64,000 nucleotides of DNA, from NCBI RefSeq assembly GCF_009689585.1, contig NZ_AP018694.1:1302001-1366000 (forward strand), written 5' to 3'. The notes beneath the pieces are model-generated. The model ran no database searches. It was not told where the DNA came from and saw only the letters and a program-made list of their open reading frames with translations. Source of the stretch: Aquipluma nitroreducens. GTDB taxonomy: Bacteria > Bacteroidota > Bacteroidia > Bacteroidales > Prolixibacteraceae. Shown piece by piece: positions 2,431 through 57,026 of this stretch. The translations under genes were made by a program, and so were the position numbers. The stretch's first letter is position 1. Every line of letters begins with the position of its first letter.

Positions 2431-3060
2431 TTAAATCTTAAACAATTCTTCAATTTTACTTACAGAACTTTCCAGAACTACAACTTTTTTAGCGTTAAGT
2501 ATCTGGTAAGTATTTAATTCTGAAGCAGTTACAACAGAAACTGCCTGTAAATTTCTGGAGGACAAATATATATTTTTATTTTCTTCCGGTAAAACGAATA
2601 GTGACTTTTTATCATTAATTTTCAGATTATTACTGATTTGCACCATTTCGCGTGTTTTCGGAGTTTCGAAAGCGAAATCTTCGATTACCAAAATTGATTC
2701 TTCCAGAGCTTTATATGTCAATGCTGATTTACGTGCAAGAGACTTAACTTTCTTATTTAATTTGAAATCATAAGTTCTTGGACGTGGACCAAAAACGCGA
2801 CCTCCACCACGGAATACAGGAGATTTTACACTGCCTGCTCTTGCGGTACCGGTACCTTTTTGTTTTTTGAGTTTCCGGGTACTTCCGGATACTTCTCCAC
2901 GTTCTTTTGCACTGTGGGTTCCTTGTCTTTTATTAGCCAAAATTTGTTTCACATCCAAATAAATGGCGTGGTCACTTGGCTCAATACCGAAAATTTGTTC
3001 ATCTAATGTAACAGTTCTTCCGGTCTCTTGTCCTGCGGTGTTTAATACTTTTATTTCCAT
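2431..3060 (-). CDS. rplD: 50S ribosomal protein L4
   Basis: The 209-residue protein contains the L4 extended loop ([22 protein letters not shown] followed by VFGPRPRTY), which reaches toward the exit tunnel. In E. coli, L4 also represses its own S10 operon; whether it does so here cannot be read from the sequence. Its ATG shares a base with the rplC stop codon (TAATG arrangement), so the two are probably translationally coupled. Confidence 0.97.
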
Positions 3061-3677
3061 TACTGATAAATAATTACGGTTGAACCTTTACATCCAGGAA
3101 CTGATCCTTTAACAACCAATAAATTTGACTCTGGAATCACTTTCAAAACTTTAAGGTTCTGAATAGTAACATTGTCATTGCCATCATTACCAGCCATGCG
3201 CATTCCAGGGAAAACGCGTGATGGATAAGAAGATGCACCAACAGAACCAGGAGCTCTCAAACGGTTGTGCTGACCGTGAGTAGAATCACCCACACCACCA
3301 AATCCGTGACGTTTTACAACGCCCTGAAATCCTTTACCTTTAGTTACACCCTGAACATCAACCCAACCTTCTTCATCGATTGAATCAACAGTAACGACAT
3401 CACCAAGTTTAAACTCACCTACAAGTTCTTTGAACTCAATAAGTTTCTTTTTAGGCTCTGTTCCAGCTTTTTTGAAATGACCCAGTTCAGCTTTATTGGT
3501 ATGCTTTTCTTTTTTGTCAGCAAACCCTAACTGAATTGAATCATAGCCATCAGTAGCCACCGATTTCACTTGTGTAACAACACAAGGTCCGGCTTGAATC
3601 ACAGTGCATGGGATGTTTTTCCCCTCAACACTGAATACGGAAGTCATTCCGATTTTTTTACCGATTAATCCTGCCAT
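3060..3677 (-). CDS. rplC: 50S ribosomal protein L3
   Basis: The 205-residue protein begins [15 protein letters not shown] and has the conserved central segment [14 protein letters not shown] followed by [16 protein letters not shown], which contains the W-finger region near the peptidyl-transferase centre. L3 is an early assembly protein of the large subunit. It follows rpsJ by 22 bases and overlaps rplD by one base. Confidence 0.98.
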
Positions 3678-35719: not shown

Positions 35720-36835
35720 TTATTTTTTAGTTTGATATTTTACAAATTGTTCCTGAAGCTGGTTTTCAATATGAATTCGGTCTCGCTCCAGCTCGGTTTT
35801 AAGTTCGTCTTCAGTAGGAAGATAAAGCTTATATTTTGATGAGAATAGTTGTTTACTTTCGGCCAAAACCGAATATTTAACCACCGACTCGCTTTGCTGC
35901 GAACACAAAATAATGCCTATAGTTGGATTGTCGTCGGGCTGACGCACTTTCTCTTCAAATAGCCTCACGTACATATCCATCTGCCCCACATCCTGATGTG
36001 TAAGTTTGCCAACTTTTAAATCAATCAGCACAAAACACTTCAGGATATAATTGTAGAAAACCAGATCTATATAATAATGGTCGGCATCGACATTCAAATG
36101 ATATTGGCGCGAAACAAAAGCAAACCCACGTCCAAGTTCCAGAATAAACGAATGTAGGTTTTCGATCAACGCACTTTCGAGTGTTTTCTCCAGATAAGAA
36201 ACTTCAGGTTTCAACTTCAGGAATTCCAGAATATAAGGATCTTTAATAAAATCGCGCGGCGATTCAACCAATAGTCGGATGCTCTGTTCAGCTTCTTCTT
36301 TCACCTGACGTTGATCCCGGCTCGAAATAATCCGCTCATAATACATCGTGCTGATTTGCCTGTCGAGCGCACGTACACTCCAGTTTTGAATGGCAGATTC
36401 CTTCTTGTAAAATTCACGGGCATTTTGATTTTCAACCCTCATCAGCAGCGAATAATGCGACCAGCTCAATTGGTCAGACAGTGTCTGGCGAATTTGTACA
36501 TTATTATCCGACAATAGATTGGGAACAAAAAGATCAGGAAATACAAGAAAAAACTGTCTGAAATATTTAAGGTTGGTTACCGAATAGCCCCGGCCATATT
36601 CTGAGGTAAGTTTCTCCGAAAGTTCTTTCAGAATCTGCTTGCCATAGTCGGCTCTGGTAGCACCTTTCTGCTCATCATCAACAATCAGACGGCCAATCTC
36701 CCAATAAGCCGCAACAATGTTTGTATTGGCAACCCGATAAATATTTCGGAAAGCCGAATCCAGAACATATTTAACTGATTCGAATAAATGGAGATCTTCA
36801 GGCAGCATAAATGAATTAAAGTATTTAATATTCAA
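35720..36835 (-). CDS. DUF1016/YhcG family PDDEXK nuclease-like protein
   Basis: The 371-residue protein has an N-terminal DUF1016 helical part (about 15-165, with NTNIVAAYWEIGRLI and YSVTNLKYFRQF) and a C-terminal PDDEXK-type domain (about 205-345). Candidate catalytic residues are in the YYIDLVFY segment and in CFVLIDLKVGKLTHQDVGQMDMY. The family is often found beside restriction-modification or other defence genes, but none is here. It sits inside the his genes between hisF (14-base gap) and hisIE (1-base gap), in the same direction. The start could also be Met10 at 36808. It looks intact. Its role in this operon is unexplained. Confidence 0.82.
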   Translation of the reverse strand: MNIKYFNSFMLPEDLHLFESVKYVLDSAFRNIYRVANTNIVAAYWEIGRLIVDDEQKGATRADYGKQILKELSEKLTSEYGRGYSVTNLKYFRQFFLVFPDLFVPNLLSDNNVQIRQTLSDQLSWSHYSLLMRVENQNAREFYKKESAIQNWSVRALDRQISTMYYERIISSRDQRQVKEEAEQSIRLLVESPRDFIKDPYILEFLKLKPEVSYLEKTLESALIENLHSFILELGRGFAFVSRQYHLNVDADHYYIDLVFYNYILKCFVLIDLKVGKLTHQDVGQMDMYVRLFEEKVRQPDDNPTIGIILCSQQSESVVKYSVLAESKQLFSSKYKLYLPTEDELKTELERDRIHIENQLQEQFVKYQTKK

Positions 36836-38431: not shown

Positions 38432-38459
38432 TTTAGATTCAAACTTAAGTTACAGAGAG

Positions 38460-38491
38460 ACAAGGCACCTAAGTACCAAAGTATCTCAATA
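38460..38491. repeat. right arm of the inverted repeat flanking a four-helix-bundle gene (family d)
   Basis: In operon orientation the gene's TAA is followed within about 6 bases by ATACTTTGGTACTTAGGTGC and CTTGTCTCTC. This is the inverse of the arm at 38851-38892 (AAGTACCAAAG, AGACAAAG). The four-helix-bundle gene therefore lies between the two arms of one hairpin-type repeat. Confidence 0.7.
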
Positions 38492-38848
38492 TTATTTATC
38501 AGTTATTGATTGGATAAATGCTGAAAGCATCCTCTCAATTTCTCTGGTTTCTTCAAATACAGTATTAAACTTGCCTTCTTCAATGTATTCAAGATTCCTG
38601 GCAATCCTTAATTGTGTTTGCAATTCAAATAAGGAACCCATTGAAATTTTCAAAAAGCGAATAAAATCTTGTTGCGATTTTCGACCAAAACCTTCAGCAA
38701 TATTTGAAGGAATTGAGACTGCACAGCGACGTATTTGACTTGTTAGTCCATAAACCTCTTCTTTAGGGAAATTACGAGTTTCTCTATAAATGACTGTGAC
38801 AATCTCCATCGATTTCTGCCATACAAATAATTCAGTATATGTCTTCAT
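38492..38848 (-). CDS. four-helix-bundle protein (S23 / 23S intervening-sequence family), copy 1
   Basis: The 118-residue all-helical protein reads FVWQKSMEIVTVIYRETRNFP, then GLTSQIRRCAVSIPSNIAEG, the typical signature of the four-helix-bundle family. That family is known from 23S rRNA intervening sequences and is related to the Avd protein of diversity-generating retroelements. It is basic in the central helix pair, which suits nucleic-acid binding. Here it is not in rRNA but between hisH and hisA, in operon orientation, flanked by family-d inverted arms. A second member lies at 42803-43120. Confidence 0.88.
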   Translation of the reverse strand: MKTYTELFVWQKSMEIVTVIYRETRNFPKEEVYGLTSQIRRCAVSIPSNIAEGFGRKSQQDFIRFLKISMGSLFELQTQLRIARNLEYIEEGKFNTVFEETREIERMLSAFIQSITDK

Positions 38849-38850
38849 TC

Positions 38851-38892
38851 TTTGTCTTTTGCTTTGGTACTTTGCCGCTTTGGTACTTTGTT
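38851..38892. repeat. left arm of the inverted repeat flanking a four-helix-bundle gene (family d)
   Basis: In operon orientation TAACAAAGTACCAAAGC, including the hisH stop codon, starts two direct copies of CAAAGTACCAAAGC. AGACAAAGA follows, just before the ATG of the four-helix-bundle gene. Confidence 0.75.
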
Positions 38893-39493
38893 ACTTGATT
38901 TTCAAAAAATTCTCCAAAATCCTCGCTCCTACAGTTCCGCTTTTTTCAGGATGAAACTGTGTGGCATAAAAATTATCGCGGTGCAAGGCAGCGCTGAAAG
39001 GATTGATGTAATTACATACGGCAGCGGTATGTTCACCCACTGCGGCATAATACGAATGGACAAAATAGACAAATTGGTTCTCGAGCGATGGATCGAAAAT
39101 GTCACTTTTCAGATCGGTGATAGTATTCCAACCCATGTGCGGAACCTTGGTGACGAATTCCATCCCTGATTCTGGAATAAACCGTTTGACTTGCTCATCG
39201 AAAATACCCAAACATGGCGTATTGCCTTCTTCCGAATGGCTACACATCAATTGCAACCCCAGGCAAATTCCAAGAACTGGTTGTTTCAGCTCAGGAATCA
39301 GTTTATCCAGACCTTCTTTCTTCAGGTAAGCCATTGTAGTACTGGCCTCTCCCACTCCCGGAAAAATCACTTTATCGGCGGTCTTAATCTTTTCGTGGTC
39401 ACCTGTGATTTCAGCATTCACGCCAAGTCGCTGCAAGGCATTGTTGACAGATTCGATGTTTCCCGCGTTGTATTTAATAATGACAATATTCAT
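38891..39493 (-). CDS. hisH: imidazole glycerol phosphate synthase, glutaminase subunit
   Basis: The 200-residue class I glutamine amidotransferase has a nucleophile Cys in LGICLGLQLMCSHSEEG (about 77) and a His/Glu pair in ATQFHPEKSG. It supplies ammonia to HisF. Its stop codon merges with the family-d repeat. Upstream there is a 159-base gap holding an opposing tRNA gene, so it may start a separate transcript. Confidence 0.96.
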   Translation of the reverse strand: MNIVIIKYNAGNIESVNNALQRLGVNAEITGDHEKIKTADKVIFPGVGEASTTMAYLKKEGLDKLIPELKQPVLGICLGLQLMCSHSEEGNTPCLGIFDEQVKRFIPESGMEFVTKVPHMGWNTITDLKSDIFDPSLENQFVYFVHSYYAAVGEHTAAVCNYINPFSAALHRDNFYATQFHPEKSGTVGARILENFLKIK

Positions 39494-39534
39494 ATTGTTA
39501 TTCTATATTTTTCTGATCAATTCGATGACAACAA

Positions 39535-39542
39535 TAGCTTTG
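39535..39542 (+). promoter_or_regulatory. -7 box upstream of tRNA-Glu
   Basis: TAGCTTTG exactly matches TAnnTTTG and ends 33 bases before the tRNA. It sits within a CAACAA/TTGTTG inverted repeat. No clear -33 TTTG is seen. Confidence 0.45.
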
Positions 39543-39575
39543 TTGTTGTACCTTTATCTGAAGAAATTCAAATCC

Positions 39576-39647
39576 GGCGCGTTCTTCTAACGGTTAGGAA
39601 ACCGGTTTCTCAATCCGGAGATGGCAGTTCGATTCTGCTACGCGCTA
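39576..39647 (+). tRNA. tRNA-Glu (anticodon CTC)
   Basis: The 72-base cloverleaf has an acceptor stem GGCGCGT / ACGCGCT (first pair G-U), a D arm TTCT with an AACGGTT-type loop, and an anticodon stem CCGG(T) / (T)CCGG with loop TTCTCAA and CTC at 39609-39611. A 4-base variable loop fits tRNA-Glu. The T arm is GGCAG-TTCGATT-CTGCT and the discriminator is A. The CCA end is not encoded. The 31-39 pair is a T-T mismatch. It runs opposite to the surrounding his/purU genes and ends 5 bases from the stop of the TlpA-like gene. A tRNA search program would settle the call. Confidence 0.78.
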
Positions 39648-39652
39648 CAATT

Positions 39653-40189
39653 CTATTTTAGAAGCTCAGCAATTACTTTCTTCATTTCCTGAAACTCCTC
39701 TTCTTTATACAACCTTGTCATAAAAACAATTTTACCAGTTTTATCAACAATCACATTTCGGGTAACACCAGCACCTTTTTCAGCAAACTGATAAAAGATA
39801 CCACCTTTCGGGTCAAGCGCCAACGGGTAAGTGACAGGAATCTGCTTGGCAAATGTCTTTACTTTTTCAACTGGTTCATCCAGATCAATTCCGAACAAAG
39901 CAAAATTTGGATTGTCCTTGTATTTTCTCCAGATATCGGCTTCGATGTGCGGCATCTCCTTCCGGCATACTCCACACCAACTGGCAGTAAACTGAAGCAT
40001 CACCACTTTGCCTTTCAAATCGGCTGTTTGAACAGTTTTCCCATCAGTTGTGATCATACTGAAATCAGGAATTTGCTGCCCAACTTTAACGATGTAGGCG
40101 TAATCAGCAGGAATTTCCTTTGCTGGTGATTGAGCAAAGGCTCCTGAATAACTTAATCCAATCATGAGTAGTAGAATAATTTTTTTCAT
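39653..40189 (-). CDS. TlpA-like periplasmic thioredoxin-fold protein
   Basis: The start at ATG 40189 (MKKIILLLMIGLSYSGAFAQ) gives a clean 20-residue signal peptide; 8 codons upstream are unlikely. The mature domain has the redox motif WCGVC (C72, C75) in QFTASWCGVCRKEMP, and a conserved Pro region AGVTRNVIVDK. Total length is 178 residues. It is 10 bases downstream of purU and probably co-transcribed with it. It has no evident link to histidine synthesis. It is distinct from the TlpA-like protein at 23232. Confidence 0.85.
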   Translation of the reverse strand: MKKIILLLMIGLSYSGAFAQSPAKEIPADYAYIVKVGQQIPDFSMITTDGKTVQTADLKGKVVMLQFTASWCGVCRKEMPHIEADIWRKYKDNPNFALFGIDLDEPVEKVKTFAKQIPVTYPLALDPKGGIFYQFAEKGAGVTRNVIVDKTGKIVFMTRLYKEEEFQEMKKVIAELLK

Positions 40190-40199
40190 GGCATAATAT

Positions 40200-41072
40200 T
40201 TAACTAAAGACAACTGTTCGATTGTTGTAAACCAAAATTTTTCGTTCGATGTGCTTGTTCACGGCCTTTGAAAGAACGATTTTTTCCAGATCACGGCCTT
40301 TTGCAATCAGGTCGTCAACCATGTCTTTGTGGCTAACATGAGCAACTTCCTGCTTAATAATTGGGCCAGCATCAAGTTCTGTTGTTACATAATGGCTTGT
40401 TGCACCAATAATTTTTACTCCGCGTTTGTATGCAGCGTGATAAGGTTTTGCACCAACAAATGCCGGCAAAAACGAGTGATGAATGTTAATAATCCGGTTA
40501 GGAAAATGGGTAATAAATTCGTCGCTGATGATTTGCATGTATCGTGCCAACACAATAAAATCGATTTTATGCTTTTCCATCAAAGCAATTTCCTGAGCTT
40601 CCAGTTCTTCTTTATTGTCTTTTGTCACCGGGAAAACGTGATATTCAATATCGAACCTCCGGGCTACATCGGCCATATCCGGATGATTGCTGATGATCAC
40701 AGGAATTTCCACGTTCCATTCTCCTGAAGTATATCGGGCCAGAAGATCGAACAGGCAATGCGACATCTTCGAGACAAAGATGGCCATTCGAGGCTTTTCT
40801 TCCGAAAAATGGAGTTCAAAGGTCATTTGATTTTTCTGACCAATAAGCGTTGCAAAATAGTCGGCTATTTTATTTTTCGGGATATTGAAATTCGCTAAAT
40901 CCCACTCTACACGCATGTAAAACAGTTTTTCTTCACGATCTACATGCTGATCGAGATACAAAATATTCCCATTATTGGTATTAATAAACTCAGTTACCAA
41001 TGCCAGAAGCCCCTGCTGATCGGGACAGTGAATGAGCAGAATTGCGGTTGATTTACTTGTATCTATTGTCAT
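40200..41072 (-). CDS. purU: formyltetrahydrofolate deformylase
   Basis: The start at ATG 41072 (MTIDTSKSTAILLIHCPD) gives 290 residues. An N-terminal ACT-like domain (about 8-90) is followed by a formyltransferase-fold catalytic domain with INIHHSFLPAFVGAKPYHAAY and the catalytic Asp in TTELDAGPIIKQE. The enzyme hydrolyses 10-formyl-THF to formate and THF and balances one-carbon pools. A loose metabolic link is that HisF/HisH release AICAR, which consumes 10-formyl-THF in purine synthesis. A family-c repeat lies upstream. Confidence 0.9.
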   Translation of the reverse strand: MTIDTSKSTAILLIHCPDQQGLLALVTEFINTNNGNILYLDQHVDREEKLFYMRVEWDLANFNIPKNKIADYFATLIGQKNQMTFELHFSEEKPRMAIFVSKMSHCLFDLLARYTSGEWNVEIPVIISNHPDMADVARRFDIEYHVFPVTKDNKEELEAQEIALMEKHKIDFIVLARYMQIISDEFITHFPNRIINIHHSFLPAFVGAKPYHAAYKRGVKIIGATSHYVTTELDAGPIIKQEVAHVSHKDMVDDLIAKGRDLEKIVLSKAVNKHIERKILVYNNRTVVFS

Positions 41073-41083
41073 ATTTGTTGGTT

Positions 41084-41165
41084 TAAACACAAAGGACTCA
41101 AAGGTTTTCCACAAAGGACACAATGTTTTCTTTTATATCCTTCATGTTCCCATGTATCCTGCGTG
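41084..41165. repeat. stop-abutting inverted repeat between the GxxExxY gene and purU (family c)
   Basis: In operon orientation it starts right after the TAG of the GxxExxY gene (CACGCAGGATACATGGG...) and ends with TTGTGTCCTTTGTGG and GAGTCCTTTGTG, 12 bases before the purU ATG. Its two halves can pair. Confidence 0.75.
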
Positions 41166-41537
41166 CTATAAAATAACTCGTTTAATTCCGTTCTTTAAAT
41201 GTGTTACATTGAAGTTCACTAAAAGTCCAAGTTTGCACCCTGATAATTTCAGATATGTCAAGGTCTGAGCCAAATGAACATCTGTTAATTCTTCAACTGC
41301 CTTCAATTCTACAATAATCTTATTTTCCACCAAAATATCCAATCGTAAGTGGCTTCCCAATTTCAACCCTTTATAAATCAGAGGAAGATGCTTTTGTTTT
41401 TCAACATTCAGACCGACCATCTGCAATTCGATAAAAAGACATTCTTCATAAACACTTTCAAGCAACCCAGGTCCCAGGTTCGTGTGCACTTCGAAAGCAC
41501 AATCGAGTACTTTCTTGAAAATTTCTTCGCGATCCAT
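41166..41537 (-). CDS. GxxExxY protein (PDDEXK-like small protein)
   Basis: The 123-residue protein has the naming motif GLLESVYEECL at about 24-34 and a PDDEXK-like core: SHLRLDILVENKIIVELKA, giving Asp and ExK. Members of this family are small and widespread, often next to short repeats, and of unknown function. Here it stands between hisB and purU in operon orientation, with family-c repeat sequence on both sides. No partner gene is adjacent. Catalytic activity is inferred from the motif only. Confidence 0.87.
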   Translation of the reverse strand: MDREEIFKKVLDCAFEVHTNLGPGLLESVYEECLFIELQMVGLNVEKQKHLPLIYKGLKLGSHLRLDILVENKIIVELKAVEELTDVHLAQTLTYLKLSGCKLGLLVNFNVTHLKNGIKRVIL

Positions 41538-41558
41538 ATTTCTGTTGTTGGATATCTA

Positions 41559-41597
41559 CTTCGTGTCCTTCGTGAAAACCCTTTGTTCCTTTGTGAT
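41559..41597. repeat. stop-abutting repeat between hisB and the GxxExxY gene (family c, half element)
   Basis: In operon orientation the hisB TAA runs into TCACAAAGGAACAAAGGG and then CACGAAGGACACGAAG, just upstream of the GxxExxY ATG. Only one polarity of arm is present here. The opposite arms lie beyond the gene at 41084-41165. Confidence 0.75.
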
Positions 41598-42718
41598 TAT
41601 AGTGTTCCCTTGGTTGTTGGTAATTCGAAGTTAAACACATCTTTCCGGATGGCCATCTTTACAGCACGAGCCAATGCTTTGAAAATGCCTTCAATTTTAT
41701 GGTGTTCGTTGGTTCCTTCAGCCTGAATGTTCAGGTTTGCCAAAGCAGTATCAGAAAATGATTTGAAGAAATGAAAGAACATTTCTGTTGGCGTGTCGCC
41801 CACTTTTTCGCGCTTGAATTCGGCATTCCAAACAATCCACGGACGACCACCAAAATCGATGGCTACCTGAGCCAGACAATCGTCCATTGGCAGGCAATAG
41901 CCATAGCGTTCAACGCCACGTTTGTCGCCTAAAGCCAGTTTAAAAGCTTCGCCAAGGGCAAGACCAGTATCTTCAATGGTATGATGTTCGTCAACATTCA
42001 GGTCGCCGTCCACTTGAATTTTTAAATCAACTCCTGAATGGCGGGCAATCTGATCGAGCATGTGATCAAAAAATCCAAGTCCGGTGTGAATATTTCCTTT
42101 ACCTGTTCCGTCCAGATTCAGTTCAACCCTGATTTTGGTTTCTTTGGTGCTCCGGATAACTACCGCAGTACGATCAGGAGCTGCAACTTTGGAATAAATC
42201 TCATCCCAATCGGTTGTAATCAAGGCACAAAATTCGGCCAATCCCTTTTCCTGAAGTTCATTTGCCAACGAGCCATCGTTAATCAGAATTCCTTTTGCTC
42301 CAAGGTTCTTCGCAAGTTGTATATCTGTCAATCGGTCACCAATTACGAAACTATTAGCCAGATCGTAACTACCATCCATGTATTTTCCCATCATGCCAGT
42401 CCCTGGTTTGCGGGTTGGTGCGTTATCCGCCGGAAAGTGACGGTCGATCAAAATGTCGTCGAAAACAACACCCTCCTTTTTAAAGGCGTTGAGAATCTTG
42501 TTGTGAACCGGCCAGAATGTTTCCTCTGGAAAACTCGCTGTTCCTAAACCATCCTGATTGGTCACCATCACTAATTCGTACGACAGGTTTTTGGCAATAA
42601 AATGCATATTCCTGAATACTTTTGGCAAATATTCCAGTTTTTCGAGTGAATCAATCTGTTCATCTTCTGTCTCGAAAATCAGTGTTCCGTCGCGGTCGAT
42701 AAAAAGGGCTTTTTTCAT
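41597..42718 (-). CDS. hisB: bifunctional histidinol-phosphatase / imidazoleglycerol-phosphate dehydratase
   Basis: The start at ATG 42718 ([13 protein letters not shown]) gives 373 residues. The N-terminal HAD phosphatase (about 1-165) has the nucleophile motif DRDGT and a later [11 protein letters not shown]. The C-terminal dehydratase (about 185-373) has the metal-binding motifs [21 protein letters not shown] and NEHHKIEG. The fusion matches the enterobacterial type HisB and catalyses steps 6 and 8. Its stop codon is embedded in a family-c repeat. Confidence 0.97.
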
Positions 42719-42725
42719 AATATAT

Positions 42726-42808
42726 AAATATCGAATATCGAACAAGAAATAAGAAATGTAAAACGAGCACTTCGAAGTTCCTTATTCCTTATTTGGTGTT
42801 TCTTATTT
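42726..42808. repeat. stop-abutting repeat between a four-helix-bundle gene and hisB (family b, copy 1)
   Basis: The first 34 bases match the copy at 43132-43216 in 33 positions (ATATCGAATATCGAACAAGA...). The remainder is about three-quarters identical. Internally GAACAAGAAATAAGAAATG can pair with the TTCTTATT words of the other end. In operon orientation the TAA stop of the four-helix-bundle gene lies inside the element's AATAAGAAAC word. Confidence 0.85.
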
Positions 42809-43120
42809 TTTCTTTTTTGCTGTTTCTATACTTTTCAGAAAAATGGCAATTAATTCATTGTTCTCTTGAATAATATCTGTCATTCTCTCAGGTTTTAAGA
42901 GAGGTTTTTTCAATATTATTTTCAATTTATGAATGAAATCATTCGTAGATTCTGCTGATTGCGCCTCGCCATAGTTCAATGCTGGTGCAGTTCCACAACG
43001 AATTAATTGGTTCCCGATGTGATTACCAAGTTTTGTATTCGGTAAAGATTCAACAATTTCATCAATCCGTAAAGCAAAATCAATCAAGCGATCTTCAAGG
43101 TCAAACCGTCTTTCTTCCAT
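42803..43120 (-). CDS. four-helix-bundle protein (S23 / 23S intervening-sequence family), copy 2
   Basis: The 105-residue helical protein has FALRIDEIVESLPNTKLGNHIGNQLIRCGTAPALNYGEA, a divergent version of the four-helix-bundle signature, ending in a Lys run. It is only distantly similar to copy 1 at 38492, so it is not a local duplicate. It lies between hisC and hisB in operon orientation, exactly between two directly repeated family-b elements, as if one repeat-plus-gene unit had been added in tandem to an existing repeat. Confidence 0.85.
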   Translation of the reverse strand: MEERRFDLEDRLIDFALRIDEIVESLPNTKLGNHIGNQLIRCGTAPALNYGEAQSAESTNDFIHKLKIILKKPLLKPERMTDIIQENNELIAIFLKSIETAKKKK

Positions 43121-43131
43121 GTCGTAAAATT

Positions 43132-43216
43132 TAAATATCGAATATCGAACAAAAAATAAGAAATGTTGAACGGCAACTTCGTTGTTTCTTGTTTCTTATT
43201 CGTTGTTTCTTATTTC
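43132..43216. repeat. stop-abutting repeat between hisC and a four-helix-bundle gene (family b, copy 2)
   Basis: In operon orientation AAATAAGAAACAACG starts at the hisC TGA, and the element ends TTCGATATTCGATATTTAA about 11 bases before the next ATG. It is a direct repeat of 42726-42808. Confidence 0.85.
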
Positions 43217-54613: not shown

Positions 54614-54630
54614 AGTTAAGGAAAGAAATT

Positions 54631-54685
54631 GAAAAGAGTCATTAGTCATTTGAAAGTTTTCCCAATGACCAATGACTCTTTTCTA
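54631..54685. repeat. intergenic inverted repeat between gyrB and the LOG gene (family a)
   Basis: GAAAAGAGTCATTAGTCATT pairs with CAATGACCAATGACTCTTTTC (about 19 of 21 positions) around a short loop. It begins 7 bases after the gyrB stop codon and can act as a terminator-like hairpin. Confidence 0.8.
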
Positions 54686-54692
54686 TGTTTTT

Positions 54693-57026
<2,334 letters not shown>

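Follow-up and report, generated by a model that had tools for sequence, protein, structure and literature searches.

The his operon of Aquipluma nitroreducens lies within the stretch of 64,000 nucleotides analyzed here (the window) and is interspersed with three small guest genes bounded by repeats, which raises the question of what these guests are and how they came to occupy the gaps of an operon. A sequence-only reading had placed a first four-helix-bundle gene (S23 copy 1) between inverted d arms, a GxxExxY gene between c elements and a second four-helix-bundle gene (S23 copy 2) between direct b repeats, with cargo-less c elements at the hisA/hisF and hisD/hisC junctions, and all of these assignments were borne out (Table 1). 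The d arms measure 44 nt each and are 73% complementary, the GxxExxY gene has inverted arms of the ACAAAGGAC type on both sides, and the two b repeats are 83% identical. Each b repeat is in addition partly self-complementary, and S23 copy 2 is thus placed between two hairpin-like repeats. As had also been noted, the three guests are encoded on the his operon strand.

Table 1. Guest genes, their flanking repeats and cargo-less hairpins in the window (upstream and downstream in the sense of the gene).
Feature	Position	Strand	Support
S23 copy 1, four-helix-bundle protein, 118 aa	38492..38848	-	PF05635 E 6.7e-42; TIGR02436 E 6.5e-42
d arm upstream of S23 copy 1, starting within the end of hisH	38862..38905	-	
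d arm downstream of S23 copy 1	38438..38481	-	inverted relative to the upstream arm
GxxExxY protein, PD-(D/E)XK nuclease superfamily, 123 aa	41166..41537	-	PF13366 E 3.4e-44; TIGR04256 E 4.1e-46
c-type arm upstream of GxxExxY	41559..41599	-	
c-type arm downstream of GxxExxY	41080..41130 (approximate)	-	
S23 copy 2, 105 aa	42803..43120	-	TIGR02436 E 1.3e-11 (above cut-off); PF05635 under cut-off
b repeat upstream of S23 copy 2, hairpin-forming	43122..43215	-	fold z -2.5
b repeat downstream of S23 copy 2	42715..42808	-	fold z -1.2 (not significant)
c-type hairpin without cargo, hisA/hisF junction	about 37612..37704		fold z -3.6
c-type hairpin without cargo, hisD/hisC junction, ACCACATAGG units	44261..44327		fold z -8.5
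GTCATTAGTCATT hairpin without cargo, outside the his locus	54616..54696		

S23 copy 1 has relatives of solved structure (2gsc and 2rld) and shares no more than 47% identity with any of ten further S23 proteins of its own genome (G000) in an alignment, with no recent copies within that genome, which speaks against a mobile unit. S23 copy 2 is shorter by 14 residues, in frame, than its relative in genome G011. None of the three his-locus guests matched the anti-phage defence models of PADLOC.

With a probability of roughly 0.55, judged from sequence comparison, each guest appears to be a one-gene mobile cassette that carries mirror-image arrays as its ends and sits in operon gaps. The pairing of the flanks exceeds chance. 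In the genome itself, flanks cross-paired between loci have a 95th percentile of 36 for the inverted-arm score, a value that 10 of 17 cargo loci exceed. Among named S23 loci from several phyla, 46/79 reach a score of at least 30, with 1.7 expected from cross-pairing and 2/305 found at pseudo-gene positions. In the genus, 77/95 loci (those at shared sites not being independent of each other) reach at least 26 versus 1.8 expected, and so do 19/26 Bacteroidota GxxExxY loci versus 0/104 controls, the other seven of the 26 scoring below 26. A test set beforehand, that guest genes elsewhere should also have arms, thus came out positive for most loci and negative for others, namely the 33/79 named S23 loci below 30 and the 18/95 genus loci below 26. 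Direct-orientation matches of the flanks reach 30 at 9/79 S23 loci and 26 at 8/26 GxxExxY loci, and some loci pair better in direct than in inverted orientation. In a 464 kb sample in which 379 ORFs were scanned, heptad or c arms were found around S23 and GxxExxY genes only.

The arms have a recognizable architecture which depends on the gene that they enclose. S23 arms are inverted and built from 7-8-nt units (match of 0.50, 0.43, 0.46 and 0.43 at periods of 7, 8, 14 and 16 nt; about 0.30 after shuffling), while Bacteroidota GxxExxY arms consist of 8-9-nt CRCRNAG units, the median number of units per arm being 4.3 and 3.0, respectively. S23 arms also show a polarity, with AG outnumbering CT in left arms (257 vs 43) and the reverse in right arms (45 vs 236). 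Terminal inverted repeats are present, as in the S23 element L291, which ends in AAGTGTTCAGT and ACTGAACACTT. Arm type follows cargo type (21/26 vs 4/80, Fisher 8e-14), and the c-type pattern occurs in 30/75 GxxExxY-positive versus 5/73 GxxExxY-negative genomes (Fisher 1.7e-6), some of these hits being the GxxExxY arms themselves. The sequence of the units varies from locus to locus. The three repeat families proposed earlier accordingly hold for the window but are not fixed classes, since units vary by locus and junctions differ by species. When arms at shared sites were viewed by eye, their units were seen to shift.

Both the orientation of the cargo and the variability of the junctions relate the guests to the operons that host them. 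Where both neighboring genes point one way, the cargo points likewise (69/70 and 20/21). Across relatives, the same his junction may be compact, contain a hairpin or contain cargo, and one junction can hold different arm families, or different arm-plus-cargo units, in different species of the genus. For instance, genomes G004 and G005 have a single b repeat without S23 at the junction where the window has S23 copy 2.

Movement is suggested by one S23 family represented by four elements at three sites in three species (L285, L287, L282 and L291), with two copies in G011 and two in G009. These elements are 88-92% identical across arm, gene and arm (469/533, 465/525 and 509/556 identical positions), the arms being as alike as the genes; their flanks are unrelated and identity ends near the arm ends. 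This supports the earlier proposal that repeat and cargo form a mobile unit without a recognizable transposase. One ABC operon accounts for two of the sites, at adjacent junctions, and alr is the third. Inspection by eye of the surroundings of L285, L287 and L291 revealed no target-site duplication. After alr, CAGT-type arms without S23 are present in 10/20 genus genomes and S23 is found there in G009 only, from which it follows that cargo may also enter pre-existing arms. The alr case fits such recombination as well as movement of a whole unit. Collectively, the pairing of flanks, the match between arms and cargo, the sense orientation, the junction polymorphism and the 88-92% identical elements are best read as arms and cargo forming one mobile unit, and suggest that repeats and gene have spread jointly without a known transposase.

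Arrays without cargo are also informative. Units of the hisD/hisC hairpin are the arm units of a GxxExxY gene at locus L016, and those of the GTCATTAGTCATT hairpin also flank the S23 gene of L006. A further cargo-less hairpin (L264, 6051-6104) belongs to the arm family of S23 copy 1 (scores of 39 and 32; shuffled maximum 29). By a strict rule, which mostly misses 9-nt c hairpins, 14/234 intergenic hairpins in a 1.264 Mb sample of the genome (668 gaps) are heptad-like, although two of the 14 look like another type on visual inspection. For the b- and c-type arms of the window, alignment gave no clear cargo-less copy in a sample of about 1.2 Mb, with scores near the shuffled maximum. Between genomes, 48/50 positions agree when a lone arm of G017 is compared with the right arm of the GxxExxY element that G018 has at hisB/purU. 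Cargo-less arrays of cargo-bearing families therefore occur within the same genome, and we infer that at least some of the lone arms and cargo-less hairpins are cassettes minus their gene. The earlier reading of empty repeats as the unit without its cargo is thus upheld for at least some of them, through the G017/G018 arm and the junction polymorphism. Such arms could be remnants, and they could also be older landing sites.

This last possibility is central to an alternative which we regard as doubtful, in which the arrays would be old and self-spread, homologous recombination or homing would copy cargo between like arrays, and the gene alone would be mobile; in a variant for GxxExxY, its nuclease would perhaps first cut empty arrays. 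The S23-free arms after alr, the cargo-less arrays of cargo-bearing families in one genome and the tracking of cargo type by arm type all agree with such an exchange, as do the lack of a transposase in the unit and of a visible target duplication, and the commoner c-type pattern of GxxExxY-positive genomes (a count that includes GxxExxY arms). However, arms are as similar as genes in the four similar S23 elements, arms change between species together with cargo at one junction, and S23 is no nuclease family.

Whether the arms act as DNA or as RNA separates the cassette reading from another, unlikely one. In an mRNA intervening sequence, base pairing of the arms within the operon transcript would create a stem for RNase III to cut, which would free the cargo message, and the insert would be tolerated because it is cut out. 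The gene family and layout are those of 23S rRNA intervening sequences as described in PMC4990558, the cargo lies in sense orientation within operons and the cargo-less hisD/hisC hairpin folds well. In contrast, G-U-compatible mismatches in the arms are not in excess in three data sets (82 vs 110, 41 vs 39 and 151 vs 139; mirror test), the whole S23 copy 1 element has a fold z of only -1.5, and the arms share spaced cores rather than one continuous helix. Given the lack of a G-U bias, an RNA stem is less favored than arrays that act as DNA and would be recognized by the cargo protein. As a selected feature, an RNA stem was rejected, the wobble-bias test giving it no support.

Movement in trans by a host Y1 (IS200/RAYT-type) transposase, the element being MITE- or REPIN-like and S23 or GxxExxY a passenger, is quite improbable. 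Y1_Tnp genes do occur in 23/23 genus genomes, and their counts correlate weakly with those of S23 (rho 0.45, p 0.03, one of two correlations tried). Nevertheless, of the six Y1 genes of G000, the two that lie in the sampled part of the genome carry their own non-heptad palindromes, and a Y1 transposase would leave the match between cargo and arms unexplained.

Under the preferred cassette reading, the mobile entity would comprise an S23 or GxxExxY gene with an array of about 3-5 units (7-9 nt each) on its left and the mirror image of that array on its right. The arrays would be DNA signals, not RNA, putatively bound by the cassette's own protein: a single S23 homopentamer would occupy an array of about 4-5 units, and the GxxExxY nuclease one of about 3. 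They would also act as cassette ends, through which copying or recombination would bring the unit into an operon gap or into an existing array. The cassette is taken to have no promoter of its own, and would be kept only where operon transcription reads through it. More tentatively still, these cassettes may represent a class of transposase-free elements. In this class, inverted arrays of spaced 7-9-nt DNA units would be read by an S23 pentamer ring or a GxxExxY nuclease, which would thereby insert the cassette that encodes it between operon genes in many phyla, and the S23-bearing inserts of 23S rRNA would be one special landing site.

To our knowledge, S23 proteins have for decades been known just as ORFs in rRNA inserts, and next to no literature on GxxExxY proteins was found among open-licence papers, two of which contain the word. 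With array, cargo and operon position, the two families now have a context in common and a substrate that can be tested. If S23 and GxxExxY proteins drive movement, they would define a mobile element of novel chemistry that reshapes operon junctions, and many intergenic hairpins would be explained as its remains.

Several known systems share part of this design, and no link of S23 or GxxExxY to such arms was found among open-licence papers. Like MITEs, the cassettes have terminal inverted repeats. REP and REPIN elements with RAYT (Y1) are likewise (PMC3116915, PMC2817692) numerous short intergenic hairpins without a transposase of their own, whereas cassette arms are heptad arrays accompanied by a cargo gene. 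Short 7-nt intergenic units are also found in TAACTGA-type heptamers, described in PMC4679880 as patchy across phyla including Bacteroidetes and of unknown mechanism; those are direct repeats of one heptamer, with S23 not mentioned in the text searched, while cassettes have inverted array pairs, many unit sequences and a gene in between. A weak likeness of S23 copy 1 to Avd/bAvd (NF033474 E 4.9e-8 and PF22296 E 3.1e-8, both under cut-off; phrog_3206 E 1.9e-13) recalls diversity-generating retroelements; unlike these, G000 has no RVT_1 reverse transcriptase (0 matches). A reverse transcriptase acting in trans was likewise rejected, as G021 has 15 S23 matches and no RVT_1 either; a resident RVT_1 enzyme is thus unnecessary for keeping the elements, and past help is possible.

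The closest known system is that of the S23-encoding intervening sequences of 23S rRNA. As described in PMC4990558, these bacterial inserts, for example in Coxiella, have complementary ends and an S23 ORF, are excised by RNase III and have been proposed to be selfish or mobile. An Rfam search of L130, L147, L163, L170, L172, L193, L196 and L198 found no rRNA, which ruled out a 23S rRNA location for L130. The cassettes differ from the rRNA inserts in occupying protein-coding operon gaps such as the his junctions, perhaps in having arms made of 7-9-nt unit arrays, in the alternative GxxExxY cargo, in the cargo-less forms and in showing no RNA-pairing signature here. What both have in common is insertion into a transcribed unit, complementary ends around an ORF and, for S23 copy 1 and more weakly for copy 2, though not for GxxExxY cassettes, an S23-family ORF inside the element.

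The genome of Aquipluma nitroreducens (G000) is a single contig of 5.71 Mb, in which the window corresponds to C1:1302001-1366000. Its his locus, on the minus strand, houses three guest genes (see table); names of his genes beyond the detected domains follow our reading of the translations. The repeats that the sequence-only reading had described around these guests were recovered, with two corrections: the b repeats are partly self-complementary, and S23 copy 2 is shorter by 14 residues, in frame, than its G011 relative. Genome-wide, 12 PF05635 (S23) matches, 11 of them above the cut-off, and five PF13366 (GxxExxY) matches were found. The same locus contains a YhcG/DUF1016 gene of the PD-(D/E)XK type, PADLOC candidate PDC-S02, with no space for heptad arms; in three other loci, L039 (G021), L057 (G024) and L126 (G004), an S23 gene follows hisF in its place. 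It also contains a tRNA-Glu, a sequence not seen by eye in the tlp/hisH gap of G015 and G036, which holds an S23 element.

Guest genes, members of one S23 family and other located features
Feature	Genome or locus	Position	Strand	Place
S23 copy 1	G000, window			his locus, between hisH and hisA
S23 copy 2	G000, window			his locus, between hisC and hisB
GxxExxY	G000, window			his locus, between hisB and purU-like gene (formyltransferase by domain)
YhcG/DUF1016 gene	G000, window	35720-36835		between hisF and hisI
tRNA-Glu (ctc)	G000, window	39576-39648	plus	inside his region
S23 family member	L285 (G009)			
S23 family member	L287 (G009)			
S23 family member	L282 (G011)			cut by contig end
S23 family member	L291 (G010)			
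Non-heptad palindrome	L028	2901-2938		gap
Non-heptad palindrome	L020	13323-13352		gap
Acido-Lenti-1 RNA match	L130 (KSB1 contig)	2486-2531		near S23 gene
Acido-Lenti-1 RNA match	L130 (KSB1 contig)	3059-3104		near S23 gene

Inverted arms exceed the 95th percentile of cross-paired flanks at 10 of the 17 cargo loci of this genome, and their unit sequences vary from one locus to another. The wider S23 analysis used the best 80 of 582 confirmed candidate loci, a choice which favours close relatives of the query; many are MAGs, and the lineages given in their record titles include Bacteroidota, KSB1, Nitrospirae, Desulfobacteraceae, SAR324, Acidobacteria, Planctomycetes and Firmicutes-type ones. When the left flank was scored against the reverse complement of the right flank, 46 of the 79 usable loci among these 80 reached at least 30, against 1.7 expected from cross-pairing and 2/305 pseudo-gene positions inside the same loci; in direct orientation, nine of the 79 did. 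The genus, taken together with two relatives from the family, has 98 S23 ORFs; 95 were usable, and 77 of these scored at least 26 (1.8 expected). The GxxExxY sample comprised 29 loci from the phylum, three of which could not be parsed; the same score was reached by 19/26 loci compared with 0/104 controls, and by 8/26 in direct orientation. In an unbiased scan for inverted brackets around 379 ORFs of at least 60 aa (464 kb sample), the best brackets included those of three genes for S23 and two for GxxExxY. Also near the top were a pectinase-like gene and two Y1 transposase genes, bracketed by palindromes of other kinds, and weaker matches. Two Acido-Lenti-1 RNA matches lie near one S23 gene (see table).

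In 51 S23 loci with arms scoring at least 26, arm self-similarity peaks at 7, 8, 14 and 16 nt, other distances being at background. Left arms carry 257 AG versus 43 CT, and right arms 45 versus 236. Since an inverted pair of arrays reads alike from both strands, this polarity is a property of the element, independent of cargo direction. Periodic S23 arms have a median of 4.3 units (IQR 3.5-4.9) and GxxExxY arms 3.0; AG columns in the output of this unit count are favoured by the phasing rule itself. At shared sites the spaced core is kept and spacer letters differ, one example being the AGAT-type units that five genomes have behind the same mutase-like gene. Arms also match their cargo: an inward CRCRNAG motif is present in both flanks of 21/26 GxxExxY loci versus 4/80 S23 loci. 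The pattern ACCACRNAGRNCACRNAG, found in 35/148 genomes of the phylum, occurs in 30/75 with a GxxExxY gene versus 5/73 without (genomes counted as if unrelated); two of its 20 matches in G000 are the arms of one locus, L016. Another family of palindromes, GTAGAGACG...CGTCTCTAC, which is not of the heptad type, fills gaps here, at L028, L020 (see table) and other places, as well as an ABC-transporter junction of several relatives.

Both neighbours were present at 76 of the best 80 S23 loci, 70 of which lie between co-directional genes, and 69 of these 70 cargo genes point the same way. For GxxExxY, both neighbours were present at 25 of 26 loci, with a co-directional pair at 21 and concordant cargo in 20. 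In G000, 690/945 neighbouring gene pairs are co-directional.

An rRNA-IVS-like role, in which the arms act as an RNA stem in the sense transcript, would be expected to leave an excess of mismatches preserving a G-U pair over their mirror types. This excess was absent from S23 arms (82 vs 110, p 0.05 in the opposite sense), GxxExxY arms (41 vs 39) and the S23 arms of the genus (151 vs 139), and the S23 copy 1 element, folded as a whole, is little more stable than shuffled sequence (z -1.5). Although the small c hairpin at hisD/hisC is very stable relative to shuffled sequence (z -8.5), these data make such a role less likely.

The same junctions are polymorphic among relatives. At hisH/hisA, ten of 21 genomes carry cargo, six are compact (2-5 nt) and five hold other material. 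By sequence, G000 has S23 with ACCAAAG arms there, six relatives a different S23 with ATTAACG arms, and five cargo-less material of other kinds, GGGGAGG-type in four. Cargo occupies hisC/hisB in 7/20 genomes and hisB/purU in 5/20; the hairpin cut-off of this count passes over several hairpins visible in the junction sequences. At hisC/hisB, the repeat b-S23-repeat b arrangement of G000 corresponds to a single b-type repeat in G004 and G005, and at hisB/purU the lone right arm of G017 is identical at 48/50 positions to the GxxExxY right arm of G018. The ABC-transporter junction holds S23 (G009, G011), GxxExxY (G014, G019, partial in G004) or, in further relatives, cargo-less c-type arms. In the hisA/hisF gap of G020, G009 and G011 (L045, L049, L051), about 1.4 kb of other genes is inserted.

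Similar cassettes also occur at different sites. The 98 S23 ORFs occupy 38 sites, with a median pair identity of 75% within and 28% between sites, and some between-site pairs are at least 90% identical. The 98% pair is the tandem of S23 genes at a contig end in L283 (G010), identical at 575/575 nt, which may be a recent duplication or an assembly artefact. The strongest case for movement is one S23 family in G009, G010 and G011 (see table), whose members are identical at 469/533, 465/525 and 509/556 positions over arm, gene and arm; the match ends near the arm ends and flanking genes are unlike. In G011, a second copy adjoins the first. Two points weigh against a simple reading of this case. 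Two of the three sites neighbour each other in one ABC operon. The third lies behind alr, where 11/20 genomes have at least two CAGT units within 70 nt and G009 alone has the S23 gene; multiple losses of the cassette may have occurred there, or it may have entered existing arms, as in arm-guided exchange, the first rival explanation.

What is established is the sequence of the arrays and their polarity, the fit between arms and cargo, the shared orientation, the polymorphic junctions and the copies at different sites; their best explanation, which we hold with a confidence of 0.55, is that arms and cargo form one mobile unit. The arrays would be bound by the cassette's own protein. The PDB entries of two S23 relatives, 2gsc and 2rld, contain five chains each, and a Xanthomonas S23-type protein is called a homopentamer in a passage of PMC4990558; with four to five units per arm, one putative S23 ring per arm would fit. 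GxxExxY is placed in the PD-(D/E)XK superfamily by Pfam. RVT_1-type reverse transcriptases were not found in G000; Y1 transposases are present in 23/23 genomes of the genus, which makes a Y1 helper acting in trans possible.

Full-text searching of one library of open-licence papers returned none that describes a link of S23 or GxxExxY to such arms. The closest matches there were IVSs that carry S23 and the heptamers of intergenic DNA. The S23 cassettes described here have their layout in common with the IVS of 23S rRNA.
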